A stretch of 34,671 bases of DNA. It comes from Bryobacteraceae bacterium (GTDB lineage Bacteria > Acidobacteriota > Terriglobia > Bryobacterales > Bryobacteraceae). A model generated the notes under the pieces. The model ran no database searches and had not been told where the DNA came from. It worked only from the letters and a program-made list of their open reading frames with translations. A program made the position numbers and the translations under genes. Every line of letters begins with the position of its first letter. Position 1 is the first letter of the stretch. The DNA is taken from assembly GCA_028275505.1 (NCBI GenBank), contig JAPWUP010000019.1, positions 1 through 34,671 of the forward strand, written 5' to 3'. Below are positions 6,019-19,011 of the stretch, piece after piece.

Positions 6019-6936
6019 TCAGGTGGCGGCGGGTCCTCCCGCCAGGATGCGGCTCACGATCTCGACGTTCTCCCGGATTTCGTCCTTGAAGCGCGGGAAC
6101 ATGCCCACGATGATGGCGTCCTGCGGCTTGATGTTGGTCAGCACGAACCGGAAAGCCGCCTCCAGCCGCTCGGGCGTGTTGACGTTACGCCCCGCGCCCA
6201 GCACCTTGAAAGCGAAGCAGGTCTTGCGCGTCTTGCGCACCACCGCGCACATGCGCTCGGGATCGCGCTCCATATAGATCTCGCCCACCGGCGCCTCGCC
6301 GAACTCCTTGCGCGCCTCCTCCGGCGTGCGCGTCACGCGGTACATGCAGGTCATGTAATAGTCCACGTTCCAGCCGTGTTCCTCGATGTACTCGATCACG
6401 GCAGGGTTGTGCGTGGAAACGCCCGCCGGAACGCCCGCGTCATGCACCGCGTTGACGAAATCGCGCACGATGCTCATCTGGCCGGCGCGGAAGCGCTCGT
6501 CCGTGCGGTTGCCGTGGTGGGCGATGCCGATGGGGTTCAGTCGCGCGACTTCGGGCAACAGCTTCCAGTTCTTCATCAGCTCGAAGTCGGCCAGCAGCAG
6601 CCAGTGCATCTTGCCGCCCTCGGCCCGGTAACGCTTGAGGTCCTCGATGGTGGGATCGTTGTAATGCACCTGCCAGGTGTTGATGCCGCACTGCTCGGCC
6701 CGGTGCAACACTTCGATGCGCCGGTCCTGCGTCATCCATTCCCGCATCAGGTTGTCGAGAATGCGATTGAAGTGGGAATAGCCGTAGAGCGGGTTGGATC
6801 CGATGATCAGGCGGGTAATCTCAACCTGACCGAATTTGACCTTGGGCAGGGGAGGCGGAGCTGCGCCCGCCGTAACGGCGAGCGATCCCGCGATCCCGAG
6901 AAATTCCCGACGAGTGGCGCCATCCCGTGCTGACAT
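6019..6936 (-). CDS. Tat-exported TIM-barrel protein, aldo/keto-reductase-like
   Basis: A protein of about 305 residues with a twin-arginine signal at its N-terminus (TRREFLGIAG), so it is probably exported folded. The body reads like an alpha/beta barrel: ITRLIIGSNPLYG near the start, INTWQVHY, and ADFELMKNWKLLPEVARL. The last third has AVVRKTRKTCFAFKVLGAGR and PQDAIIVGMFPRFKDEI, both reminiscent of aldo/keto-reductase-like proteins. I do not see a complete catalytic tetrad of that family, so the activity is uncertain. ATG 6934-6936 is chosen because the Tat signal begins there. A TATAAT (6946-6951, minus) lies only 10 bases upstream, which suggests its own promoter and a nearly leaderless message. 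It is the last gene of the minus-strand glycan operon, 38 bases after the flavoprotein gene. Confidence 0.7.
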   Translation of the reverse strand: MSARDGATRREFLGIAGSLAVTAGAAPPPLPKVKFGQVEITRLIIGSNPLYGYSHFNRILDNLMREWMTQDRRIEVLHRAEQCGINTWQVHYNDPTIEDLKRYRAEGGKMHWLLLADFELMKNWKLLPEVARLNPIGIAHHGNRTDERFRAGQMSIVRDFVNAVHDAGVPAGVSTHNPAVIEYIEEHGWNVDYYMTCMYRVTRTPEEARKEFGEAPVGEIYMERDPERMCAVVRKTRKTCFAFKVLGAGRNVNTPERLEAAFRFVLTNIKPQDAIIVGMFPRFKDEIRENVEIVSRILAGGPAAT

Positions 6937-6974: not shown

Positions 6975-8444
6975 CTACTTTGCCGCCGCCTGGCTTTGCC
7001 AGGCCAGGATTTCTTCTTCGCCCACCGCCCGCCCTTCCTCCAGGTAATCTTCTTCCACGTTGACGCGCCACAAATCGAAGCGCCCGCCCAGCACGTTGCG
7101 CGCCGCCAGCATCCCCGTCAGCATGGAGTGGTCCTGGTTGTTGTAACGGTGCATGCCGTTGCGCCCCACGACCTGCAAGTTGGGAACCGTCTCGAGAAAA
7201 CGCCGCACTGCGCTCAAGCCGCGCTGATAGGCGTCGTCATAGACCGGGTACGCCTTCTCCATGCGCACCACGGCCCCGTCCACTACGCGTCCTGCCCCGG
7301 CCAGGCCCAGCGTTTCGATCTCGCCGCTGGCCATCGCGATCAGTTCTTCGTCCGCAGTCCTCCACAGCTCGTCATCCTGGAAGCAGAAGTATTCCATGCC
7401 CAGGCACGTCTTGCCGGGATCCGGGCTCATTTCGGGGCTCCAGTTGTTGTAGTTCTGGATGCGCCCCACCTTTACTTCGGGATCGTGCACGTAAATCCAG
7501 TTATCGGGGAAAAGATTGCTGCCCTCGACGATGAGCGCCACGGTGAGAAAGTCACGGTAGTGGAAGTCCTCCGCCGCGGCTTGTAACTCGGCGGGCGGTT
7601 CCGGATCGAGCGCACGGATGAAATCCTTGAGTGCGATGCTGCTGATGTAGTGTTCTCCTCGCCACAGCCGCCCGCCTGCCTGGACCGCCACGACCCGTCC
7701 CGGGGCCCAGTAAATCCGCTCCACCGGCGCCCCTGTTACCACACGCCCGCCGCCCGCCTCCACCAGCTCGCGCGTGCGCTCCCACATCATGCCCGGGCCG
7801 CGTCGCGGGTACTCGAACTGGCGAATCAGGGTCTTGACTGCCTTTTGTTTGTCGGCCAAGGTCCGCGAGAAGGCGTTGCGCAGGATCGAACCCGGCGACA
7901 GCCCGCGGATACGCTGCGCCGCCCATTCCGCCCGGATCCGGTTGCAGGGCAGGCCCCAGACCTTTTCCGTGTACGTGCGGAAGAAAATCTCGAACAGGCG
8001 TCGCCCGAAGCGGTTCGAGATCCAGGTTTCCAGATCGTCTTCCGGCATTCGCGGCGCCAGCCGGGCGCGCAGGTAACTCAGGGCGCAGCGCAAGGATTCG
8101 AAAGGCCCCAGCCCGATGACGGCGTTCAGCGGCTCCAGTGGGTACTGAAAGAACTTGCCCCGGTAGTAAATGCGCGACAGACGGGACCGGGTGAGCAAAT
8201 CCGCTCCCAGAACCTCGCGCCACATTTGCTCCACCAAGGAGACCTTGGTGAAAAAGCGGTGCCCGCCGATGTCGAAAAGGAAGCCCTTGTAGCGGACGGT
8301 GCGAGCCAGCCCGCCCACCACGTCGTCCTTTTCCAGCACCAGGGGGCGCACGCCGCGTCGCACCAGTTCGTAAGCCGCCGTCAAGCCGGCGGGTCCCGCC
8401 CCCAAAATCACAACGGGGTAGAAATGTTCCGCCTCCCCGCTCAT
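6975..8444 (-). CDS. FAD-dependent oxidoreductase, UDP-galactopyranose-mutase-like
   Basis: A 489-residue flavoprotein with the Rossmann dinucleotide motif VVILGAGPAGLTAAYEL at residues 11-27. A glutamate-ended strand and VGGLARTV follow, as in the UDP-galactopyranose mutase/amine-oxidase-like group. GGHRFFTK, the EIFFRTYTEKVWGLP segment and the C-terminal NQDHSMLTGMLAARNV are typical of the FAD-dependent proteins often found beside glycosyltransferase genes. A role in making or modifying a nucleotide sugar or polyprenyl-linked glycan is likely from context. True mutase activity is not proven, because many relatives of this length are uncharacterised. The gene starts six bases after the triple-RidA gene and ends in TAG. 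Confidence 0.85.
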   Translation of the reverse strand: MSGEAEHFYPVVILGAGPAGLTAAYELVRRGVRPLVLEKDDVVGGLARTVRYKGFLFDIGGHRFFTKVSLVEQMWREVLGADLLTRSRLSRIYYRGKFFQYPLEPLNAVIGLGPFESLRCALSYLRARLAPRMPEDDLETWISNRFGRRLFEIFFRTYTEKVWGLPCNRIRAEWAAQRIRGLSPGSILRNAFSRTLADKQKAVKTLIRQFEYPRRGPGMMWERTRELVEAGGGRVVTGAPVERIYWAPGRVVAVQAGGRLWRGEHYISSIALKDFIRALDPEPPAELQAAAEDFHYRDFLTVALIVEGSNLFPDNWIYVHDPEVKVGRIQNYNNWSPEMSPDPGKTCLGMEYFCFQDDELWRTADEELIAMASGEIETLGLAGAGRVVDGAVVRMEKAYPVYDDAYQRGLSAVRRFLETVPNLQVVGRNGMHRYNNQDHSMLTGMLAARNVLGGRFDLWRVNVEEDYLEEGRAVGEEEILAWQSQAAAK

Positions 8445-8450
8445 TGCCCG

Positions 8451-9668
8451 CTATTTTACTGCGATCAGCGAGATCTGCTCGAGCATCGGCCAGCGATCCT
8501 CCGCGTCCGGTTTGCGCTCCACGGGCGGCAGCGGCTGCACGGTGGTGCGCGTCGGGAAAGCGCCGGGCGTGAAGTACTGCGCGTAGACGCGGTTCATGCG
8601 CTCGAAATCGGCAATGTCGTCCAGGTAGACGTTGGTCGCCACGACGTGCGAGAAATCCAGCTCTGCCTCTTCCAGTCCGTCCAGCAGATTCCGCATCGTC
8701 TGCCGCAGTTGATGCTCCACCGTGGAGGCGTAAATGCCGCTGCGCGGGCCGGGTATGAAACCCGACTTGGCCGAGCAATACAAAGTGTCCGCGGCGAACA
8801 CGCAGGGGCTGGCCGTCGCGCTGGGCGCCATGTTTTTGGGTCGCACGGCGCGCCGTCGGGTGAGGTCCTTCACGGCCACGCCTGTGAACTCGATTCCGGC
8901 GCCTGCCGGCAGCGCCTTGACCCGAATCGTGGCCCGCGCCGGCGTGTTGCCGAACTCGAAGCGGCGGGCGTAAAGCCGGTTCATCGTTTCCATCGGCACC
9001 CGGTCCGTCAGGTACGGATTCACGAAAACCAGATGCCGGAAGTCGAGGCCGGCTGCCTTCAGGATTGCGCCGAGTTGGTTCAGCGCCGTCTCCACTTGCG
9101 CTTCGGGTTCGGCCGGGATGCGAGCAGCCAGCGCCTCGTAGCCGAGCACGCCCGAGACGAAAACGCGATCCCCGGCATCCACGGCCGCCGAACAGAAAGG
9201 TGGCACGGCGACGTCCTTCAGGAGCGTAACCTTCTTGCGCGCCAGGTCGCGCACCGCCACCGCGTTGATCTCCACCGGCGTACCGCCCGGCATGCGCTCC
9301 ACGCCCAGCACGGCGCAGGCGGGCGCATCGTGCGGGAAAAACTCGCGCCACACCGGCCCGAGTTCCTCCCAGCGACGGACGTCTTCAAGATAGATCTGCG
9401 AGTACACCACGTGGTCCATGCTCAAGCCGGCGGCTTCGACCACCGCGCGGACGTTCTCCAGCGTCTGACGCACTTGCGCGCGGAAGTCGCCCGGCATCGC
9501 TCCGTCAGGAGTCCGCGCACCCTGCCCCGAGACGTAGAGCCAATCTCCCACGAGGATGCCGGGACTGTATGGCCCGATCGGTTTGACGCCGGGCGGGAAG
9601 ATCGCGCGCCTCTCCGCAGCGCTCGCGGCGGTTACGACCAACAGGAAAGCCAGGACTCGCATGCTCAT
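8451..9668 (-). CDS. Secreted protein with three tandem RidA (YjgF/UK114) domains
   Basis: About 405 residues. A signal peptide (MRVLAFLLVVTAASA) is followed by three consecutive RidA-like units. Unit 1 (about 20-140) has YVSGQGARTPDG and QVRQTLENVRAVVEAAGLSM. Unit 2 (about 150-270) has VFVSGVLGYEAL and QVETALNQLGAILKAAGLDF. Unit 3 (about 280-395) has LYCSAKSGFIPG and QLRQTMRNLLDGLEEAELDF. RidA proteins are normally single-domain cytosolic imine/enamine deaminases of about 130 residues. The arginine usually needed for deamination is present in unit 2 (PARATIRV), replaced in unit 1 (APACAVLGV), and in unit 3 occurs as PTRTTV. The start at 9668 lies four bases after the stop of the glycoside-hydrolase-like gene. 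The stop is TAG. Substrate and role are unknown. Confidence 0.85.
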   Translation of the reverse strand: MSMRVLAFLLVVTAASAAERRAIFPPGVKPIGPYSPGILVGDWLYVSGQGARTPDGAMPGDFRAQVRQTLENVRAVVEAAGLSMDHVVYSQIYLEDVRRWEELGPVWREFFPHDAPACAVLGVERMPGGTPVEINAVAVRDLARKKVTLLKDVAVPPFCSAAVDAGDRVFVSGVLGYEALAARIPAEPEAQVETALNQLGAILKAAGLDFRHLVFVNPYLTDRVPMETMNRLYARRFEFGNTPARATIRVKALPAGAGIEFTGVAVKDLTRRRAVRPKNMAPSATASPCVFAADTLYCSAKSGFIPGPRSGIYASTVEHQLRQTMRNLLDGLEEAELDFSHVVATNVYLDDIADFERMNRVYAQYFTPGAFPTRTTVQPLPPVERKPDAEDRWPMLEQISLIAVK

Positions 9669-9672
9669 GAGC

Positions 9673-11832
9673 TTACTCGACCACGAGCACTTCGTACTCA
9701 TCCAGCCGCGGCAAGCTGACCTGGATACGCCCGCCCTGGCGGCGGAAATCCAGCGTGCGATTCGCCACCAGCGCCCTGACGCTGCGCGCCGGCGCGACGC
9801 CTTCCAGCTCCACCGTGATGTTCGTCAAGGGCACGATGCGCTGGATCGGCCGCGTCATCTCACCGGTGAAGTTGAGCAGATGCACGAGCCGGCGTCGTCC
9901 GTTTTCCTGCGAGCGCAGGACTACTTCCACCGAGCCGGGCGCATTTTCCAGCCGCACAGGCGCAGGCGCCAGCTCGCGAACCAGGTTGCCGACCAGAGCC
10001 AGGTGCTCGCTCATGTGAAAGCCCTGGATCGAGTTGCCCAAATCGCCCGCCACATAGACTGCACGACCTTTGCCGGCGCGGTGGAGCACCACGGCGGGGT
10101 CTTCGGAAACCTCGGGCACGCCATCGTATTGTCCCGCCAGCGGCCGCGTGAAGTACAGCGCCGTCTGTCCCTGGCCTCCTCGCACGCGCAGGTGGTAGAT
10201 CATGGCCGGAATCAACTGGCGCCGGAAGCCCGGCAGCAGATCGGGAGCGCCTGCGGCCGCCTGCATGAAGTCCCAGCGCTTGGGCCCGACGATCCGCTTG
10301 CCATCGTGCACGCCGAAGACATCCGCCAGCGCGAAGTCTTCGCGGCGCACGCCGGTTTCATCGTAGAGCGAGGTTTCGAAAGTGGCCACCAGGTTGCCGC
10401 CCGCCTGCACGTACGAGCGCAGGCGATCTGCGACCTGCGCGCTCATGCAGGCCACGTTGGGCAGTACGATGAGCGCGTAACGCTCCAGTCGCTCGCGGGC
10501 CAGCGATTCGTCGTCAATCACGTCGAACGGCGTATGGGAACGCACCAGCGCCTCGGCCAGCCCGTTGAACTCCCCGTCCAGATTGCCCACTTCACTGCGG
10601 GCCGGCACGCGGTCCACGTCAATCAACTGCGCGTCGGCGCCCGCATAAAAGCTTGCGGTCAGGTCGGACCAGACCAGCGCCACGCGCGCCTCGGACCGTG
10701 TTCCCACGAAATATTTGGCGTTCCGCTCCACGAACCGGTTCATGGCGGCCATGGCGTCGGTCTCGGGTAGCGCCGCTTCGAAGGGCGAGAAAGCCAGCCA
10801 CACGCTGGCGCCGTTGGCGATCGAGTCGGCGTAAAGCAGGCGCAGCTCGGGCGCGGGCAGGATCGAAAACGTCCACGGCTTGTGGGCGGCGGCGGCGAAA
10901 ATCACGCGCGGCTTGTCCGGCGCCTGTGTTTCCAGCAAGCGCGCCGTCAGGCCGGCTTTCCAAAGCGAGGTGCGCGTAAGGTCGCCGTAAATGAAACCGC
11001 CCTCGCTGCCCAGCAGATCCTGCGCTTGGACGAGAACGCGGTTGAAGCGTCCGGTGGCCCAGTTGCCTCCGCGCACGCCGCCGTTCATGTAAAAGGCGAT
11101 CTCGGGGTTGACGGACTTGATTACGCGGCGCGAATCGCGCAGGAAGTCCGCCAGGCTGCGCGCCTGAAATTCCATCAGGGTGGCGAACGCACGGCCGCGT
11201 CGCTCGCGTTTGGAAGGCATCTCACCGCCGTACAGCTTGCGATACTTTTCGCGGCAGTACCGGCAGTAGCAGGTTTCCGCGAAGAAGACCGGACCGTCGT
11301 AGAAAATGCCATCTATCGGGTAAGCGCACAGATCGCGCAGGACCTGGAAGACCCATTCCCGCCACGGGCTGTTCACGCACAGCGAGGTGCCCGTTTGATA
11401 AATGCCCTCGAGTGGGCGTCCCTGCTCGGTGATCTGGACCCAGTCCGGGTGACGGCGGGCGAATTCGTGGTTGAACCAGTGCACGTTGAAATAGATGAAC
11501 ACGCGCAGCCCGCGCGCCTTGGCTTCCGGCAGGTACTGTTTCAGATAGTCGGGATTGACGCGGCTGGCCACACGGCTGGCGAAGAAGAAGCCTTCGTCGT
11601 CCAGACCCTTGCGATGCTGCATGACGGCAAGGTGCTCGGCGTTGAAGCCCAGTCGCGCCTTCAGTGCAGCCGATTCCGCGGGCGACTCGGCGATCCCCGG
11701 ATGATAATCGGTCAGCAGGTGAATGATGCGCAGGGGCTCGCGTTCCCACCAGGGAACGCTCTGACCGCAGGCAAGACCGGCCAGCATCAGCAGCGCCGGC
11801 GCGAACGTGAGGTGCAGTGGATGGCGTGTCAT
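9673..11832 (-). CDS. Secreted TIM-barrel glycoside-hydrolase-like protein with a beta-galactosidase-trimerisation-like domain
   Basis: A 719-residue exported protein with an N-terminal signal (LTFAPALLMLAGLACGQ). Residues 35-400 look like a TIM barrel of the alpha-amylase/GH42 type: GFNAEHLAVM, GLRVFIYFNVHWFN, YPIDGIFYDGPVF followed by a CYCRYC cysteine cluster, then NPEIAFYMNGG. Residues 410-560 match the flavodoxin-like trimerisation domain of GH42 enzymes (ALIVLPNVACMSAQVADRL, YVQAGGNLVATFET). A C-terminal beta domain ends the protein. The substrate is unknown, and Asp or Glu residues in YDGP may be catalytic. An AGAGA-type ribosome binding site precedes the ATG. It sits in a tight operon between a GT2 gene (12 bases) and the triple-RidA gene (4 bases), which points to surface or secreted glycan as substrate. 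Confidence 0.75.
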   Translation of the reverse strand: MTRHPLHLTFAPALLMLAGLACGQSVPWWEREPLRIIHLLTDYHPGIAESPAESAALKARLGFNAEHLAVMQHRKGLDDEGFFFASRVASRVNPDYLKQYLPEAKARGLRVFIYFNVHWFNHEFARRHPDWVQITEQGRPLEGIYQTGTSLCVNSPWREWVFQVLRDLCAYPIDGIFYDGPVFFAETCYCRYCREKYRKLYGGEMPSKRERRGRAFATLMEFQARSLADFLRDSRRVIKSVNPEIAFYMNGGVRGGNWATGRFNRVLVQAQDLLGSEGGFIYGDLTRTSLWKAGLTARLLETQAPDKPRVIFAAAAHKPWTFSILPAPELRLLYADSIANGASVWLAFSPFEAALPETDAMAAMNRFVERNAKYFVGTRSEARVALVWSDLTASFYAGADAQLIDVDRVPARSEVGNLDGEFNGLAEALVRSHTPFDVIDDESLARERLERYALIVLPNVACMSAQVADRLRSYVQAGGNLVATFETSLYDETGVRREDFALADVFGVHDGKRIVGPKRWDFMQAAAGAPDLLPGFRRQLIPAMIYHLRVRGGQGQTALYFTRPLAGQYDGVPEVSEDPAVVLHRAGKGRAVYVAGDLGNSIQGFHMSEHLALVGNLVRELAPAPVRLENAPGSVEVVLRSQENGRRRLVHLLNFTGEMTRPIQRIVPLTNITVELEGVAPARSVRALVANRTLDFRRQGGRIQVSLPRLDEYEVLVVE

Positions 11833-11844
11833 GGGATGATCTCT

Positions 11845-12855
11845 TTATCTTTGCCTCGCGGGCGGCGCGCCGGCAAGCAGGAAGTACAGGCGCCAGTAGG
11901 CGTCCCAGCCCGTCGTCCGTTGGATCTTGAGGATTTGCCGTTCGCCCTCGTTCAGGACCGCCTCGAGCAACCCGCGCTCCGCCTGTACAGAAGAGGCGCG
12001 GATTGAATCGAACATTTTCATTCCTTCCTGTTTCCCTCGGATCCAGGCCGCGAACGCGCCCCGCCGCAGCGCCAGCGCCCCCCACAGCAGTTGCGCGGCC
12101 AGCACCGCCCGCCCGTACCTGCGTTTCCAGTCCGCCGGGTAGTGTTTGGCCACGAGCAGGAGTTGGTTGCGCGCGATCAGGCGCACGGTGGCGGCGCTCC
12201 AGCGGCCCAGCGTGGCGCTGCCCGCGTGGCGGCCACGCGCCTGCGGAACGTAAAGGCCGCGGATCCCGCGCACCGCGCAGCGCAGGCAGAACTCCACGTC
12301 TTCGAGGTACGAGCCGAAGCGTTCATCCAACGGGCCCGTCTTTTCGAACAGCTCGCGTCGCAGCAGGATGGCGGTGAATCCTGCGAAGGCAATCGCGCGG
12401 GCCTGATCCCAGTCCGGCCCGTCCAGCCGTCCGGAGCCCGCCCGCCACGCCGTTGCGCCCCGGCAGACCAAGTCGAAGGTCCCGTCCAGTCGCCGCGGAT
12501 CGGATTCCGAGAGGAGCTTGCCGCAGGCAAACCAGGCGCCGTTTGCCTCTGCGGCCCTCACCAGCCGCTCCAGCCAGTCGGCCTCCGGCGTCACGTCGTT
12601 GTTCAACAGCGCGACCCATTCGTGGCGGCAACGCGTCAGGCCTGCGTTCACGGCCGCTGCGAACCCCGCGTGCTCGCGGAGTTGGACGACCTCCGCTCCC
12701 AGGCTGGCGGCCGCCTCCGCGCTGCCATCCGTCGAGCCGTCATCCGCCACGACGATCTGCGCGGGCGTCAGGGTTTGCCCGCGCAGCCGGGACAGCAGGG
12801 ACACCAGCCGCGCGCGGCCGTTCCAGTTGGGGATCAGGACGCTGACCGGCTCCAT
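11845..12855 (-). CDS. Family 2 glycosyltransferase (rhamnosyltransferase-like)
   Basis: A 336-residue GT-A fold enzyme that probably transfers a sugar from a nucleotide donor onto a lipid-linked or protein-linked glycan at the inner membrane. VSVLIPNWNG begins the fold. VADDGSTDGS binds the nucleotide, and LLNNDVTPEADW (about residues 83-94) carries the metal-binding NND in place of DxD. YLEDVEFCLR is the usual GT2 catalytic-base region. The C-terminal 80 residues are basic and helical, without a clear membrane helix. The gene starts three bases after the preceding GT2 gene and is followed by the glycoside-hydrolase-like gene. The sugar specificity cannot be read. Confidence 0.9.
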   Translation of the reverse strand: MEPVSVLIPNWNGRARLVSLLSRLRGQTLTPAQIVVADDGSTDGSAEAAASLGAEVVQLREHAGFAAAVNAGLTRCRHEWVALLNNDVTPEADWLERLVRAAEANGAWFACGKLLSESDPRRLDGTFDLVCRGATAWRAGSGRLDGPDWDQARAIAFAGFTAILLRRELFEKTGPLDERFGSYLEDVEFCLRCAVRGIRGLYVPQARGRHAGSATLGRWSAATVRLIARNQLLLVAKHYPADWKRRYGRAVLAAQLLWGALALRRGAFAAWIRGKQEGMKMFDSIRASSVQAERGLLEAVLNEGERQILKIQRTTGWDAYWRLYFLLAGAPPARQR

Positions 12856-12858
12856 GAC

Positions 12859-13560
12859 TCAGCCGTTCTGCGGCGCCGGTTTCCTGCTGCGACGGAAGCG
12901 CTTCTTGACCAGAAACCAAAGGTTGTAAATCCCGTCCCGCCACGGATTCAGCTTCTTCTCGCCCAGCCGCGACGAGTACAGGATGGAAATCTCGCCGAAG
13001 CGGATGCGCGGATTTTTCAGAGCCTCGATCTTGATCTCCTCGGAAAAGGCCATGCCGTCGGCTTCCAGCGTCATTTCCTCCAGGATGGAGCGCCGGAAAA
13101 CCCACATGCCGGATTGCGAATCGCGCACCCAGCGCAGATAGAGCAGGGACATGGCCAGCGAAAGAATCAGATTGCCGATCTTGTGTTTCAGGCTCATGGC
13201 CTTGGGATCGCGCACGGGGAACCGCGAGGCATTCAGAAAATCCACTTCCAGATGCAGGAAGGCTTCCAGCAGGTAGGAAATGGCGTCCACCGGGTAGCTG
13301 TGATCGCCGTCCAGCGTGACGATCAGGTCGCCGGTGGCGTGCGCGAATCCCTTGCGGTAGGCGCGTCCGTAGCCCCGCACGTCCTCGCGGATCACTTCGG
13401 CGCCGAGGCTGCGGGCGATTTCCGAAGTGCGGTCGGTGGAACCGTTGTCCACCACGATCACCTGATCCACGAAGGCGGGCATGCGTCGTAGCACTTGCTC
13501 GATGCCCTGTTCTTCGTTCAGGCAGGGGATCACGACCGTGATGCGGTGGCCTTTGTACAC
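12859..13560 (-). CDS. Family 2 glycosyltransferase, dolichol-phosphate-mannose-synthase-like
   Basis: A 233-residue GT2 enzyme of the polyprenyl-phosphate-sugar synthase type. ITVVIPCLNEEQGIEQVL opens the domain, VVDNGSTDRT follows, and LDGDHSYP holds the DxD metal-binding motif (residues 84-86). DSQSGMWVFRR and ADGMAFSEEIKIEA are usual for this group. There is no C-terminal membrane pair, so the soluble short form is likely. It probably makes a polyprenyl-phosphate-linked sugar for the surface glycan. The start is a GTG at 13558-13560 with only a weak ribosome binding site. It is the first gene of the minus-strand group and divergent from the small secreted protein gene at 13602. Confidence 0.88.
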   Translation of the reverse strand: MYKGHRITVVIPCLNEEQGIEQVLRRMPAFVDQVIVVDNGSTDRTSEIARSLGAEVIREDVRGYGRAYRKGFAHATGDLIVTLDGDHSYPVDAISYLLEAFLHLEVDFLNASRFPVRDPKAMSLKHKIGNLILSLAMSLLYLRWVRDSQSGMWVFRRSILEEMTLEADGMAFSEEIKIEALKNPRIRFGEISILYSSRLGEKKLNPWRDGIYNLWFLVKKRFRRSRKPAPQNG

Positions 13561-13601
13561 GGCTCTGATTGCGTGTCTTCGAAGCTATCATAGTGAATGT
13601 C

Positions 13602-14090
13602 ATGAAACGCTGGTTGTGGTGGCTGGCCTTGCCGCTGGTGGCGGCCCAACCTTCCGAACTGTCGCGCATCCGGACGATCTACCTGTTGCCCATGGGACAT
13701 GGTCTGGATCAGTACCTGGCTGGAAGTCTGACGCGCATGGGCGTCTTTCAGGTGGTGGCCGATCCCAAACAGGCCGACGCCGTGTTCACGGATCACCTGG
13801 GCGAGGCTTTCGAGCAGCGCATGAACGAGCTTTACCCGCCGCAACCGGCGCAGGCCCCATCCGAAAAGCAGGATCAACAGGAGAGCAGGAGCAAGGCCGC
13901 CGCGCGCGAAGAGGCGCCCCGGATTTCGAGCTGGGGACGCGGTCGCGGCACGATTTTTCTGGTGGATGCGCGCACGCGGATGGTGCTGTGGTCCACCTAC
14001 CAGCGCCCGCGCAATTCCTCGCCCGACGAAATTGAGCGCACGGCGCGGCGCATTGCGGAACGCCTCAAGCGCGATCTGCAGAAAAAGTGA
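13602..14090 (+). CDS. Small secreted protein of unknown function
   Basis: A protein of 162 residues with a signal peptide (MKRWLWWLALPLVAAQ). The mature part starts with IRTIYLLPMGHGLDQYLAGSL, then FQVVADPKQADAVFTDHLG, and ends with GTIFLVDARTRMVLWSTYQRP before a basic helix. I associate similar small proteins with Acidobacteria, but no function is known to me, and that association is memory rather than a search. The middle, about residues 85-115, is a charged low-complexity segment. ATG 13602 is chosen for the signal peptide. It is the only plus-strand gene between the two minus-strand glycan groups, and its last 26 bases overlap the end of the convergent GT2-GT4 gene. Confidence 0.75.
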   Translation: MKRWLWWLALPLVAAQPSELSRIRTIYLLPMGHGLDQYLAGSLTRMGVFQVVADPKQADAVFTDHLGEAFEQRMNELYPPQPAQAPSEKQDQQESRSKAAAREEAPRISSWGRGRGTIFLVDARTRMVLWSTYQRPRNSSPDEIERTARRIAERLKRDLQKK

Positions 14091-16437
14091 GCGCCGCCGG
14101 CGCCACCGCCCGTTTGCGTCGCAATCCTTCGCGATATTCCTCCGCCAGTCGTGCGGTGATGATCGCGCTGTCCCAGTGAGCCACCACCTCTTGCCGGGCG
14201 CGCTCCACCATGGCGCGGGCGCGGCCGGGGTCCTCCAGGATCTCGACCACGCGCCGGGCGAACGCCTCGGGGTCGTCCGCCAGATAGCAGAACTCGCCGT
14301 CTCGCCTCGCCAAACCTTCGGCGCCGAGCCGGGTGGAGACGACGGGAATCCCCGTTGCGAAGGCCTCCAACAGCTTGACACGCACCCCCGAGCCGCTGAG
14401 AATCGGGCACACGAACACGGCGTAGCGGCCCAGCGGCTCGCGCACGTCCTCGACGCGGCCCCGCAGCTCGATGGCTTCCAGCGGCCCGCTCAGCCCGTAA
14501 CGCGGCGGCGGGTCCGATCCCACCACGACCAGGCGTGCCGAGGGCCTCAGGGCCAGCACGCGGGGCAGAACTTCCCGCACGAACCATTGCAAGGCGGCCT
14601 GATTGGGCAGGTGGCGGAAGCTGCCCAGAAAGAGCATGGTGTCCGGCTCCCTGCCATCGGGACGGAAGGGATAATGGCTGGTCTCGATGCCGGCGCGCAG
14701 CCCGTCGCGAACGCGATCCGCGAGCGCAGGCAGGAAGGAGAGCAGGTACTCGCGGTTCTCGCGGCTGCACACCTGGATGTGATCGAAGCGCGGCAGCGTG
14801 CGCAACTCGTAACGCAGGGCGCGCAGGTATTCGAAGGCCGCCCGCACTTTCCACAGAGCGCCCCGCTTCTCGCGCAACGCCCGACCCAGCGACTGGAAAT
14901 AGATGTCGTGCTCGAACAGGGCGCAAAGCAGATTGCGGTAATCGCCGTGGTACTGCGCCAGCGGAGTGTACTCGAGCTGGATCACGTCGCAGCGACCCAG
15001 GTAAATCTGCCGGTGGATGAGCCAGTGCAGGTCGGGTAGCGCCAGTTCCCGCACCGCGTGAGGCGCCAAAGATGCCGGACCCGGGCTGGAGGGCGGGCGC
15101 ACCAGAAATTCCATGCTCGCGCAAAACGGGCGCAAATCCTCGTGCGCTTTGCGTTCCTCTTCTTTGTCCAGCAGCGCGATCAGGTGCACCTCGGCGTGGC
15201 GCGCCAGCGCTCTCAGCGTGTGCAGCATGAAGACGCCGCCCCCGTGCACGGGCGGGCAGATGGGATAAGGCGAAACGAACAGCACACGCAGCCTGTCTTC
15301 GTCCTCCGGCGCCTGGAAGCGATCGCGGAAGTAGCCGCCGAGAGGCCGCCGGAAGGCTTCCTCGTCACCGATGGCGGAGGCAGAACGGGCGCGCCAGCGC
15401 GCGGCCAGCGCGGCGGGCAGCCGGCCCACTGCCCGCCACAGCGCACTGAAGCTTGAGCGTTCCGGTGAGTCGCCCGCCACTGCGCTCACCAGTCCGTCGG
15501 CCAGCGTGAAGAAGAAGTGTCCCGCCAGCCGCCGCCACTCGTGAATGTTCTTCCACGCGAAGAGCAGGAAATTGCGTTTGAGAATACGTTCGATTTGCGC
15601 GGGCCGGAAGTGCTTGCCGATGGTGCCGCGGTGTTCGTGCCAGACGATGCTGCGCGGCTGGTAGAGAACTTTCCAGCCGCGTTTCCATGCCCGGTATCCC
15701 AGATCCGCGTCTTCCAGATAGAAGGGCGCGTAGAGTTCGTCGAAGCCGCCCAGCTCGAGGAACTTGCGCCGGTCAAACGCGCAGGAGCCTCCGCCCCCGT
15801 AAAAGCAGGGAAAGAGTTCGCGGATGCCATCGTCCACCCGGTGGCGCACGCGCAGCGAGCCGTTCTCCCACCATCCCTCGGTCAGCCCCGTTTCCTCACG
15901 GCGGCGCGCAGGATCGCTGAAAAAGATCTGGCACGAGACGGCAAACACGCACCCGTCCTGAAAACCTTCGAGGAGCGGCCCGAGGAAGTGCGCATCCACG
16001 CGCATGTCGTTGTTGAGCAGGACCACAATGTCGTTGCGGGCCTCGCGCACGCCCGCATTGGCCCCACCCGCGAACCCCAAGTTGCGTCCGGGCCGGATGA
16101 CGCGGACTCGCGGAAACTCGCTCCGGAGGAACTCGGCTGTGCCGTCGGTGGACCCGTTATCCACCACGATGATCTCGTTGTCGGGATGGCCCTCCAGCGC
16201 CGCGACCACCGAGGGCAGGTTCCGCGCCAGCAGGTCGCGCCCGTTCCAGGAAGGGATGACCACGCTGGCGGCGCGAGTCGCTGGTCGGGAATCGGGGCGC
16301 GTCCTGTCCAGACGGCGCCCCGCGATCCACCAGAGCAGATCCGTCAGCGCAAGGGCAACAGCCACAGCCAGCATCAGCAGGGCCGCGCCGACAGTCAGCG
16401 GCAAGGCCAGCAGCAGGCGAAGCAGCAACCGCATCAT
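14065..16437 (-). CDS. Membrane-anchored GT2-GT4 fusion glycosyltransferase
   Basis: A 790-residue protein with two catalytic glycosyltransferase modules. Residues 5-38 form one or two membrane helices. Residues 57-300 are a GT2 domain: ASVVIPSWNG, VVDNGSTDGT, LLNNDMRVD (metal-binding NND) and FYLEDADLGYRAWKRG. After a linker, residues 382-780 are a GT-B (GT4-like) domain: LRVLFVSPYPICPPVHGGG at its start, MLFLGSFRHLPN, LVVVGSDPP and the donor-site helix GSGVRVKLLEAFATG with its conserved Glu. Each half is near the normal length of a separate enzyme, so it could add two different sugars in sequence. The ATG overlaps the methyltransferase stop by four bases, indicating tight coupling. The 3' end overlaps the convergent gene at 13602. 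Confidence 0.9.
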   Translation of the reverse strand: MMRLLLRLLLALPLTVGAALLMLAVAVALALTDLLWWIAGRRLDRTRPDSRPATRAASVVIPSWNGRDLLARNLPSVVAALEGHPDNEIIVVDNGSTDGTAEFLRSEFPRVRVIRPGRNLGFAGGANAGVREARNDIVVLLNNDMRVDAHFLGPLLEGFQDGCVFAVSCQIFFSDPARRREETGLTEGWWENGSLRVRHRVDDGIRELFPCFYGGGGSCAFDRRKFLELGGFDELYAPFYLEDADLGYRAWKRGWKVLYQPRSIVWHEHRGTIGKHFRPAQIERILKRNFLLFAWKNIHEWRRLAGHFFFTLADGLVSAVAGDSPERSSFSALWRAVGRLPAALAARWRARSASAIGDEEAFRRPLGGYFRDRFQAPEDEDRLRVLFVSPYPICPPVHGGGVFMLHTLRALARHAEVHLIALLDKEEERKAHEDLRPFCASMEFLVRPPSSPGPASLAPHAVRELALPDLHWLIHRQIYLGRCDVIQLEYTPLAQYHGDYRNLLCALFEHDIYFQSLGRALREKRGALWKVRAAFEYLRALRYELRTLPRFDHIQVCSRENREYLLSFLPALADRVRDGLRAGIETSHYPFRPDGREPDTMLFLGSFRHLPNQAALQWFVREVLPRVLALRPSARLVVVGSDPPPRYGLSGPLEAIELRGRVEDVREPLGRYAVFVCPILSGSGVRVKLLEAFATGIPVVSTRLGAEGLARRDGEFCYLADDPEAFARRVVEILEDPGRARAMVERARQEVVAHWDSAIITARLAEEYREGLRRKRAVAPAALTFSADRA

Positions 16438-17708
16438 CGTTGTTCACCCAGCTCGGGACCCAGCCCAAAGGCCCTGCCCAGCCGCACCCAGCGCGAGGCC
16501 CGCACGGCCGCCAGCCGCGCTTCCAGCTCCCGCACCTGCGCATCCAGCCGCTGGGCCCACTCAGTGCGCTCGACGACGGTGGCTTCGGCTCGATCGAGCA
16601 ACTGCACGCATTCGGCCAGCTCCCGCGAGCGAGCCTCCAGCTCCGCGCGCGCCGCCATCAGTTCGGCGGTGAGCTGCTCTTCCACCTGTCGCGCCCACTG
16701 CGTTCTTTCCGCCAGCTCCCGCTCCAGTTCGGCCACTTTTTGTTCGTAGCCGGCCACGGCGCGACGCGCGGCTTCCTGTTGCTCGGCCAGCTCCTGCTGC
16801 AGGGCGACGATGCGCGCCCGCGCCGCCGCCAGCTCCTGATCGAGGGACGCGGCCCAGCGATTGCTACGTTCCAGCTCGGCGGTCTGCGACCGGTACATTT
16901 CGAGCAATTCCTGTTTTTCCCGCCGCGCCTCTTCCAGCCAGGCGTCCTTCTGGGCCAGCTCCTCTTGTAGTGCGGCAATGTGCCGCTCGCGCTCGCGCAG
17001 CAGGTTGGCCGCCCGCGGCGTCCAGATCAGCGCCGGCGGCAGCGGCCCCGGTTGGAGGCGGCACACAGCCAGCAGGAAATGCGCCTCGGCGGGATCGGGT
17101 TGCGCTTGCTCCATGGCGCCCTCCACCGGCGGTCCTGCTTCGACGGGCACGATGGTGATGGCGGCCTGATGGTTCTCGACGTAAAGGGAGACGAAGGGGA
17201 AGAAGTCAGCCAGCTCCGCGCGCAGCTCCTGCCAGTCGAACTCGCGGTGATGATAGGGATTGGGCCCGGACTCCCCGCGAGCTTCGGCGTAGTAAAGACG
17301 ATTCGGCGTCGAAATCAGACACTCGCCCTCGGGTGTCACCACGCGACGCAACTCGGCCAGCAGGCCGCGCCAGTCCGCCAGGTGCTCGATCACTTCGAAG
17401 GCTACGATCACGTCGAAGCTGGCCTCGGGGAAGGGCAGCGCCGTGACGGTGGCGCGCAGAAAAGAAAGGTTGTCGCGCCGGTAATGCGAGCGAGCGAACT
17501 CGATTGCCTCCCCAGACACATCCACGCCGCAGACCCAGTTCGCCTGCCCGGCGAGCAGGGCCGCGCCGTAGCCCGTGCCGCAGCCGGCATCGAGCACGCG
17601 GCGTCCTTGCGCCCTGCGCGATGCGAACACGTAGCGCGCCAGGTGCTCGTTCCACAAATCCGGTTCGATCTGGCCCGGGATGGCGCGCTCGCCCGTGAAT
17701 TCAGCCAA
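16434..17708 (-). CDS. SAM-dependent methyltransferase with a long C-terminal coiled coil
   Basis: A 424-residue protein. Residues 1-215 are a class I methyltransferase. They begin with FTGERAIPG, and motif I is VLDAGCGTGYGAALL (38-52). The acidic VDVS follows, then FDVIVAFEVIEHL and LRRVVTPEGECLISTPNR. From about residue 233 to 402 the chain is a charged coiled coil with three similar ER(S/T)-x-WA segments (Trp285, Trp338, Trp384). It ends in a basic amphipathic stretch, RWVRLGRAFGLGP, that could touch the membrane. The layout recalls WbdD-type O-antigen terminators, which carry a coiled coil as a length gauge, but no kinase domain is present here. The start is TTG with GGAG seven bases upstream, overlapping the end of the Wzt gene. 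Confidence 0.85.
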   Translation of the reverse strand: MAEFTGERAIPGQIEPDLWNEHLARYVFASRRAQGRRVLDAGCGTGYGAALLAGQANWVCGVDVSGEAIEFARSHYRRDNLSFLRATVTALPFPEASFDVIVAFEVIEHLADWRGLLAELRRVVTPEGECLISTPNRLYYAEARGESGPNPYHHREFDWQELRAELADFFPFVSLYVENHQAAITIVPVEAGPPVEGAMEQAQPDPAEAHFLLAVCRLQPGPLPPALIWTPRAANLLRERERHIAALQEELAQKDAWLEEARREKQELLEMYRSQTAELERSNRWAASLDQELAAARARIVALQQELAEQQEAARRAVAGYEQKVAELERELAERTQWARQVEEQLTAELMAARAELEARSRELAECVQLLDRAEATVVERTEWAQRLDAQVRELEARLAAVRASRWVRLGRAFGLGPELGEQR

Positions 17709-19011
17709 CGCGAGACTCCGCTGCTGGGGCTGTTTGCAGCCGGGCGTTCACTTCCACCCGGCAGGGCAAATGGATGTAGCCGTAAATCTGGCCCTCACTG
17801 TGGCCCATCTGAAGCGCAATGGCGTTGTCAATCCAGTCGCACATGCGGTAATGCAGCAGGGTGCCGTCGGCGATGGCGGGCGAGAACGAGAAGGAGGCCG
17901 GATAGAGTTCAGGCAGGTCCACGTGGAAATCCACCGTGTAGATGTCGCCGGGCAGCATGGGCGGCAGCTCCACGCCTTCGCGCGCGGTGTTGGTGCCGGA
18001 GAAGTCAATGCCCAGGTGATTTCGCAGCATGAAGCCTACGATGGGCATGGGGATTTCTTCTTTGGCGCGCACGCTGATGCGCACCACGATGCGGGAATTG
18101 GGCTCGAGCAGTTGCAGCGGCCGCCCGTACTCATCGAGCACCGCGATGCCCAGCACCTCGGCGCGCCCGTCGCCATAACGATGATCAATGTTCGGGATGC
18201 GGTCCACGATCTCGGGAGCGACAATGCGGCCCGCCGTGCGGTCACGCTCGGGCCGCTTCTTCAGTTGCAGATAAGCGGAATCCTTCTCCACCATCGCCGC
18301 CAAGTACTTGGCCACGACGGCGTCGGCAGGCCCCAGTTCGCGGATGCGGCCCTGGTCCAGCCATAAGGCCCGGTCGCCAATGGCCTTGACGTCGCCCATC
18401 GAGTGCGAGACGAACAGGATGGTGATGCCGCGCGAGCGCAATTCGTGGACCTTGCGCATGCAGCGCTGGCGAAAGTAGATGTCGCCCACGGCCAGGGCCT
18501 CGTCCACGAGCAGAATTTCCGGATCCACGTGGATGGCCACGGCGAAGGCCAGCCGTACGATCATGCCGCTCGAATAGGTTTTCACGGGCTGGTTCATGAA
18601 ATCGCCGATCTCGGCGAACTCTTCGATCTCGCGGTATTTCTGCTCGATCTGTCGGGTAGTGAACCCCAGGATGGCGCCGTTCAGGAAGACGTTGTCGCGT
18701 CCGGTGAACTCGGGGTTGAAGCCCGAGCCCAGCTCGAGCAGCGCCGAGACCCGCCCGTTCACCTTGATCTCGCCCTCGGTGGGTCGCAGAATCCCGGCCA
18801 CCAGTTGCAACAGGGTGCTTTTCCCGGACCCGTTTTCGCCGATGATGCAGAAGGTCTCGCCCCGCCGGACTTCGAAATCGAGATCGCGCAGCGCCCAGAA
18901 ATCCCGGTGGAACCGCAGGCGATTAAAAGTCAGCAGTTCCTTGAGGCGATCCAGGGGCGAGTCGTAGATAGGGTAGCTCTTGGAAAGGCCTCGTACCTCG
19001 ATGGCGTTCAC
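17701..19011 (-). CDS. wzt: Wzt-type ABC transporter ATPase with a carbohydrate-binding C-terminal domain
   Basis: The ATPase of an ABC-2 polysaccharide exporter, which would act at the inner membrane with a Wzm permease. From the GTG start (436 aa), Walker A GENGSGKS is at about 58-65, the signature YSSGM at 146-150, Walker B ILLVDEA at 166-172 and the H-loop histidine at about 203. SALLELGSGFNPEFTGRDN is diagnostic of the Wzt/TagH group. Residues 279-419 form a Wzt_C-like beta-sandwich (YGDGRAEVLGIAVLDEYG ... FMLRNHLG). In O9a-type systems that domain recognises the finished glycan. No permease gene lies nearby. GTG 19009-19011 is chosen over a TTG at 19057-19059 because family similarity begins there. 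It heads the operon with the methyltransferase and GT2-GT4 genes. Confidence 0.92.
   Translation of the reverse strand: MNAIEVRGLSKSYPIYDSPLDRLKELLTFNRLRFHRDFWALRDLDFEVRRGETFCIIGENGSGKSTLLQLVAGILRPTEGEIKVNGRVSALLELGSGFNPEFTGRDNVFLNGAILGFTTRQIEQKYREIEEFAEIGDFMNQPVKTYSSGMIVRLAFAVAIHVDPEILLVDEALAVGDIYFRQRCMRKVHELRSRGITILFVSHSMGDVKAIGDRALWLDQGRIRELGPADAVVAKYLAAMVEKDSAYLQLKKRPERDRTAGRIVAPEIVDRIPNIDHRYGDGRAEVLGIAVLDEYGRPLQLLEPNSRIVVRISVRAKEEIPMPIVGFMLRNHLGIDFSGTNTAREGVELPPMLPGDIYTVDFHVDLPELYPASFSFSPAIADGTLLHYRMCDWIDNAIALQMGHSEGQIYGYIHLPCRVEVNARLQTAPAAESRVG

Follow-up and report, generated by a model that had tools for sequence, protein, structure and literature searches.

The window analysed here, i.e. 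the whole stretch of 34,671 nucleotides comprising positions 1 to 34,671 of contig JAPWUP010000019.1 (assembly GCA_028275505.1, Bryobacteraceae bacterium), carries a gene for a protein with three RidA domains (3x-RidA), flanked on the same strand by three genes that are relevant to the analysis below:

9673..11832, (-): secreted GH-like gene, upstream of 3x-RidA, with GHL6 and a GH42M/GLMA-like domain (Pfam)
8451..9668, (-): 3x-RidA gene, ATG at 9668, 405 aa, signal peptide and three RidA (PF01042) domains
9615..9668, (-): Sec-type signal peptide, approximately residues 1–18, with a putative cleavage site (from the sequence and from the same feature in relatives)
9252..9584, (-): RidA domain 1, residues 29–139 (profile matches and residue alignment)
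8868..9239, (-): RidA domain 2, approximately residues 144–267 (residue alignment)
8454..8855, (-): RidA domain 3, approximately residues 272–405 (residue alignment)
6975..8444, (-): cytosolic FAD protein, downstream of 3x-RidA, with NF005548 and Amino_oxidase PF01593 (Pfam/NCBIfam)
6019..6936, (-): RR-leader gene without a Pfam or NCBIfam match, found near 3x-RidA in both genus sisters

PF01042 matches three stretches of the 405-aa protein (226.9 bits, E 5.8e-68, cut-off 27.3), and so does the NCBIfam model TIGR00004, 'Rid family detoxifying hydrolase' (219 bits versus a cut-off of 106). The N-terminus, MSMRVLAFLLVVTAASAAER, has the appearance of a Sec signal peptide, with a short basic start followed by a hydrophobic core and an A-x-A site; here and below, signal peptides were called with our own hydrophobicity rule and by inspection of the sequences, not with SignalP. 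The description of one chain comprising a signal peptide and three RidA domains, given in the first-pass annotation of this DNA, is thereby corroborated. The genome from which the window is derived (G000; 392 contigs, 98.9% complete) encodes also a cytosolic RidA of 126 aa (L003), adjoined by a gene that we take, from its sequence, to be dihydroorotate dehydrogenase-like. Thus, the exported forms add to the usual RidA and do not replace it. A third RidA of this genome, 155 aa long, is a secreted single-domain protein bearing a signal peptide (L168:8242-8709, (-), contig C381; also L002).

The AlphaFold2 model of the window protein (56 sequences; mean pLDDT 95.8, pTM 0.92) was compared with known structures. 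Its single domains match RidA structures, e.g. TdcF (2uyj: Z 13.0, 1.1 Å over 123 residues), while residues 40–404 superimpose on the chorismatase 4bps (Z 26.8, 285 residues, 2.9 Å, 12% identity). Among the matches listed, the only PDB chains aligned over the whole length with high Z-scores are chorismatases, plus FBXO22 chains with lower scores (Z 14–15). The chorismatases (4bps, 5a3k and 5ag3 in the PDB), which we take to be of the FkbO/Hyg5 type, are single-chain pseudo-trimers of RidA-like domains, so the whole-chain match supports a pseudo-trimer for 3x-RidA as well; they differ from it in catalyzing another reaction and in the low sequence identity quoted above. No chorismatase model is present among the Pfam and NCBIfam matches of the window protein at E <= 0.001. 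The predicted structure therefore strongly suggests that the three fused domains fold into the trimer-like body normally built from three RidA chains. Trimer mimicry by one chain had been put forward in the first-pass annotation, together with modelling as the way to check it, and the whole-chain match favours the trimer-like packing that it envisaged.

The three domains are not equivalent with respect to the catalytic residues of RidA. Domain 1 retains the counterparts of Tyr17, Gly31 and Glu120 (Y34, G48 and E133), and exhibits a Cys (Cys118) at the position of Arg105 and a Gly (Gly104) at that of Asn88. Domain 2 retains the counterparts of Asn88, Arg105, Pro114 and Glu120 (N230, R245, P254 and E260) and has lost the Tyr, and domain 3 retains those of Asn88 and Arg105 (N359 and R374), with Ala at both the Tyr17 and the Gly31 positions. 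Among 82 aligned proteins (the alignment and the tree exclude L103, which is cut by a contig end, and the residue counts exclude also L094, where no 3x-RidA ORF was called), the counterpart of Arg105 is an Arg in 68 for domain 1, 77 for domain 2 and 81 for domain 3; the counterpart of Tyr17 is a Tyr in 81/82 for domain 1 and is mostly absent from domains 2 and 3. The Cys at the Arg105 position of domain 1 is found in the window protein and in both its genus sisters. In TdcF, Glu-120 spans the subunit interface to residue 107, a neighbour of Arg-105 (PMC1884159). It follows that Tyr34/Gly48/Glu133 of domain 1, facing an Asn/Arg half-site contributed by either domain 2 or domain 3, would make up a canonical site in 3x-RidA, and the residue comparison suggests that probably a single such site is left in the genus of the window. 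The decay of the domain 1 Arg in this genus fits with this arrangement: judging from conservation, the only half-site available to the Arg side of domain 1 would be one without Tyr.

Could 3x-RidA have followed the path of the chorismatases, lost imine hydrolysis and adopted another reaction on an extracellular substrate at one asymmetric site? The best whole-chain structural match is a chorismatase, and the domains have indeed diverged, with the Tyr confined to domain 1, an Ala at the Gly31 position of domain 3 and loss of the domain 1 Arg in the genus. On the other hand, the identity to chorismatase is as low as 12%, the best sequence families are those of RidA, the Arg105 counterparts persist in domains 2 and 3, and the recurring genomic partners (see below) are PLP enzymes, the usual context of RidA; we therefore regard a new enzyme of this kind as unlikely. 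A periplasmic chaperone or scaffold devoid of enzymatic function, comparable to the holdase activity of some RidA proteins, appears even less probable. A family member with chaperone activity has been described (PMC4433059) and one site has decayed in the genus of the window, but a general chaperone would be expected neither to keep a near-invariant Arg in its second and third domains nor to pair specifically with PLP enzymes. The retention of the Arg residues in these two domains favours catalysis over a bare scaffold.

Of 200 Bryobacterales genomes, 71 encode homologs of 3x-RidA (E <= 1e-40), with full-length identity of 77% and 76% in the two genus sisters, so that the gene is no chance occurrence. 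When 396 genomes of the phylum were searched with alignment A1 (E <= 1e-60), 10 gave a match, including the window's own; the other nine are from outside the order. A signal peptide was called by our rule in 75 of 83 homologous ORFs (this count excludes L094, which is retained among the 81 loci discussed below), in agreement with the earlier prediction that the protein is exported. Five of the eight exceptions fall into a single clade of genus g9 (L075, L098, L099, L101 and L102), in which 3x-RidA has apparently returned to the cytosol; of the others, L103 is truncated, and L056 and L059 are borderline by our rule. Tandem pairs of 3x-RidA genes are present in L079, L113 and L115, with a lipobox-like LGC motif in some copies. 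In one of the 81 loci (L087:6297-8381, (-)), 3x-RidA is fused with an SMP-30/gluconolactonase (SGL) domain in a 694-aa frame. A tblastn search of plasmids yielded 41 records covering the query; in the 12 listed, the match spans only ~390–440 bases, as a single RidA gene hits each of the three domains, and the search is thus uninformative with respect to triple fusions.

The immediate neighbours in the window are tightly spaced, 4 bases separating 3x-RidA from the upstream GH-like gene and 6 bases from the downstream flavoprotein gene, exactly as noted in the first-pass annotation. When 40 further loci from the order were searched by tblastn, the GH-like gene was found only in one sister (L040), and the flavoprotein gene only in the other (L041), where it is split; it is absent from L040. 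Clustering of the 81 loci agrees that neither neighbour is kept beyond the genus. Conservation of the neighbourhood, proposed earlier as a check, is thus lacking for both genes, and they were dropped as candidate functional partners; in particular, the GH-like gene is probably not a partner of 3x-RidA. Pairing with FAD amine oxidases is a known context of RidA (PMC4433059), and the gene at 6975–8444 was considered in this light and rejected: it is of the PRK07208 type, lacks a signal peptide, and shows the patchy occurrence in the sisters described above. Farther upstream on the same strand, positions 11845–19011 of the window comprise a run of glycosyltransferase and methyltransferase genes (Pfam/NCBIfam), likely a surface-polysaccharide cluster. 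The gene at 17701 is presumably ABC-ATPase-like, judging from its sequence.

The first-pass annotation had read these neighbours as a hint of a function on a sugar-derived imine or of glycan binding. Cooperation of 3x-RidA with the products of these two genes, acting on a glycan or on an imine derived from one, would accord with the tight spacing in the window and with sugar-acid genes at some loci (the aldolase and amidohydrolase of L047, the SGL lactonase fusion of L087). It is made improbable, to about the same degree as the chaperone, by the confinement of both neighbours to the genus, with one in each sister; nor did we find any evidence of glycan binding, as Pfam identified no carbohydrate-binding domain in the protein.

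A different class of neighbours emerged from the comparison of 81 loci, i.e. the window and 80 loci fetched from the order, in which genes were predicted with a codon-usage caller and neighbour counts were checked by tblastn (the caller misplaced some starts, e.g. in L045, L065 and L119, and made the DgaE-like gene of L097 over-long). Genes for DgaE-like PLP ammonia-lyases lie within 3.1 kb of 3x-RidA in 14 of the 81 loci, representing nine genera. In 11 of these 14 they occupy position +1 or -1, compared with a rough chance expectation of 0.2–0.7, which rests on assumed copy numbers of 5, 10 or 20 per 4,500 genes. They occur upstream, downstream or divergent relative to 3x-RidA. A HisC/PtaA-like PLP transaminase is encoded directly upstream in a further pattern seen in 7/81 loci from six genera (that of L081 is partial, at a contig end), and four of these genes overlap the start of 3x-RidA by 4 bases. 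Intact partner genes carry RR (Tat-type) leaders: the automatic rule passes 15/21, the leader was read by eye in the partners from L047, L097 and L116, and those from L081, L084 and L119 are contig-cut or start late. Outside the order, a DgaE-like neighbour is present in 6/11 loci, with an RR leader in all six. A tree of 93 3x-RidA sequences implies that DgaE adjacency changed at least 12 times. Neither partner is nearby in 60/81 loci, some of which are cut by contig ends.

Fifteen of the 81 loci (L058, L075, L076, L078, L090, L101, L102, L104–L109, L111 and L112) have 3x-RidA downstream of a ribosomal operon that ends in frr, in 14 cases directly after frr; from their sequences, we take the genes of this operon to be rpsB-tsf-pyrH-frr, mostly with rplM and rpsI.

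At the level of whole genomes, a DgaE-family match is present in 71/71 genomes with 3x-RidA versus 83/129 without it (Fisher p 6e-11, ignoring the relatedness of genomes; the overlap of the two genome lists was read by eye). 3x-RidA has no PLP gene beside it in the window. Two DgaE-like proteins bearing RR leaders are encoded elsewhere in G000 (contigs C15 and C372), unlinked to 3x-RidA, and one of them shares 59% identity with the type found beside 3x-RidA in L047; no HisC-like partner was found in this genome at E <= 1e-60. For the reciprocal comparison, 20 DgaE-like loci were taken from genomes lacking 3x-RidA. Six of them (L151, L152, L153, L155, L156 and L158, from genus g12 four times and from g11 and g19) encode, within ~3 kb, a single-domain RidA with its own Tat leader. 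Thus, the pairing of exported DgaE-like enzymes with an exported RidA exists with two forms of the latter.

The recurrence of secreted PLP enzymes next to 3x-RidA suggests that imines are both made and cleared outside the cytoplasm. This runs contrary to the first-pass annotation, according to which export removes the protein from the enamine intermediates of amino-acid metabolism: a separation from PLP enzymes is not supported, as the PLP neighbours of its relatives themselves carry Tat leaders. Of that interpretation as a whole, trimer mimicry and export are supported, and the separation and the functional role of the two named neighbours are not. It could also be that Bryobacterales export many enzymes of cytosolic type and that shared export is a habit of the lineage, an impression gained from flanking genes that were not counted. 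Many flanking genes at these loci bear Tat or Sec leaders (again uncounted), so exported RidA and PLP genes might lie adjacent by inheritance alone. We consider this the least probable reading of all: the adjacency is seen repeatedly, across several families and orders, with the genes arranged and oriented in different ways, and where 3x-RidA is absent its place is taken by a distinct single-domain RidA with Tat export.

What reaction may the PLP partners catalyze? Five DgaE-like partners scanned with TIGR01437 score 140–167 bits (cut-off 385.3), and none of the 200 genomes of the order yields a DgaE match over the curated cut-off; for this reason the partners are named only 'DgaE-like'. Two HisC-like partners score 281 (E 1e-83) and 289 bits with the PtaA model NF051461, whose cut-off is 500. 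The DgaE-like partners match the DGL structure 7lc0 (E 1e-33 to 1e-37), and the PLP-binding Lys of the SGxK motif is perfectly conserved in 45/45 aligned proteins. This residue is called Lys-217 in the paper on DGL (PMC9529869) and was counted as residue 213 (SGAK) in 7lc0, while His-162/163 agree exactly. In an alignment that is loose in places, Arg-226, which binds the carboxylate in DGL (PMC9529869), is kept in 35/45 proteins, and the phosphate-site residues Arg-301, -332 and -346 in only 2, 5 and 5 of 45, respectively. The proton donor His-163, referred to as strictly conserved (PMC9529869), is found in 0/43 proteins with a residue at this position, which lies in a gappy loop and is Asp or Glu in 29 of them. 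The missing His was considered as a mark of RidA-paired DgaE-like enzymes and discarded, because it is equally absent in the 20 loci without 3x-RidA. Wild-type DGL releases an imine and its H163A mutant an enamine, and RidA has been named as the remover of such enamines (PMC9529869). The release of a reactive intermediate by a lyase with a non-phosphorylated substrate would be in keeping with a partner of RidA in the periplasm. The L047 cluster encodes also an EF_0837-type amidohydrolase and a GarL-like (HpcH/GarL-type) aldolase; together with the SGL fusion of L087, these genes provide hints of sugar-acid breakdown, each in few genomes.

On balance, we favour the interpretation of 3x-RidA as an exported imine/enamine deaminase serving exported PLP enzymes. 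The predicted Sec signal peptide would take the protein across the inner membrane, where it would meet 2-imino or 2-enamine acids generated by Tat-exported PLP enzymes, chiefly DgaE-like ammonia-lyases and PtaA/HisC-like transaminases. By analogy to RidA chemistry and in view of the gene pairing, it would hydrolyse these compounds to the 2-oxo acid and ammonia and thereby spare the exported PLP enzymes from attack. As for the physiological substrates, one may speculate on periplasmic amino acids or on amino-sugar acids that lack a phosphate group. Against the link to PLP enzymes stands the presence of DgaE-family genes in 83/129 genomes that lack 3x-RidA. A more far-reaching scenario is offered tentatively, and we would not rate it quite as high as an even chance: the whole imine chemistry may be extracytoplasmic, with Tat-exported DgaE-like lyases, devoid of His-163 and mostly of the phosphate-site Arg residues of DGL, releasing enamine or imine from amino acids or from amino-sugar acids without a phosphate, an exported RidA of either the triple or the single-domain form clearing it, and exported RidA having been recruited to this task more than once (as a Sec-exported triple and a Tat-exported single protein).

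Several elements of this prediction have precedents. Triple fusions are known as '3x-RidA', e.g. EF_0115 of Enterococcus faecalis V583 (Niehaus 2015, PMC4433059), to which the window protein is likened by its description; the same paper had already proposed that they mimic the trimer in a single chain and reported the clustering of RidA genes with PLP enzymes. It contains no mention of signal peptides or of the periplasm, while the window protein is predicted to be exported and its relatives pair with exported PLP enzymes. Compared with the RidA subfamily (RidA and TdcF of E. coli, RidA of S. enterica), the window protein shares the domain fold, the Arg in domains 2 and 3 and the genetic link to PLP enzymes, and differs in being a single chain with a signal peptide and non-equivalent domains, with the domain 1 Arg lost in the genus. 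PtaA and PvdN of pseudomonads are Tat-exported PLP enzymes that work in the periplasm (PMC6206403). The HisC-like partner is related to PtaA while missing its cut-off, and the passages on PtaA and PvdN in that source mention no RidA. In the ong cluster of Pseudoalteromonas, growth on an amino-sugar acid requires the RidA protein OngD along with a PLP enzyme (PMC9537276); OngD has just one domain (127 aa) and deamination was placed in the cytoplasm, in contrast to the triple and presumably exported window protein. A search of the open-licence PMC literature revealed no paper on an exported RidA. Thus, the triple architecture and the partnership of RidA with PLP enzymes are already known, and the compartment is new.

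Protection of the cell interior from reactive enamines is the textbook role of RidA. If our prediction is true, common bacteria of the soil type would face the problem of enamine damage, and carry out PLP elimination chemistry, in their periplasm as well, and 3x-RidA would offer a first way into the large group of DgaE-like enzymes exported by Tat.
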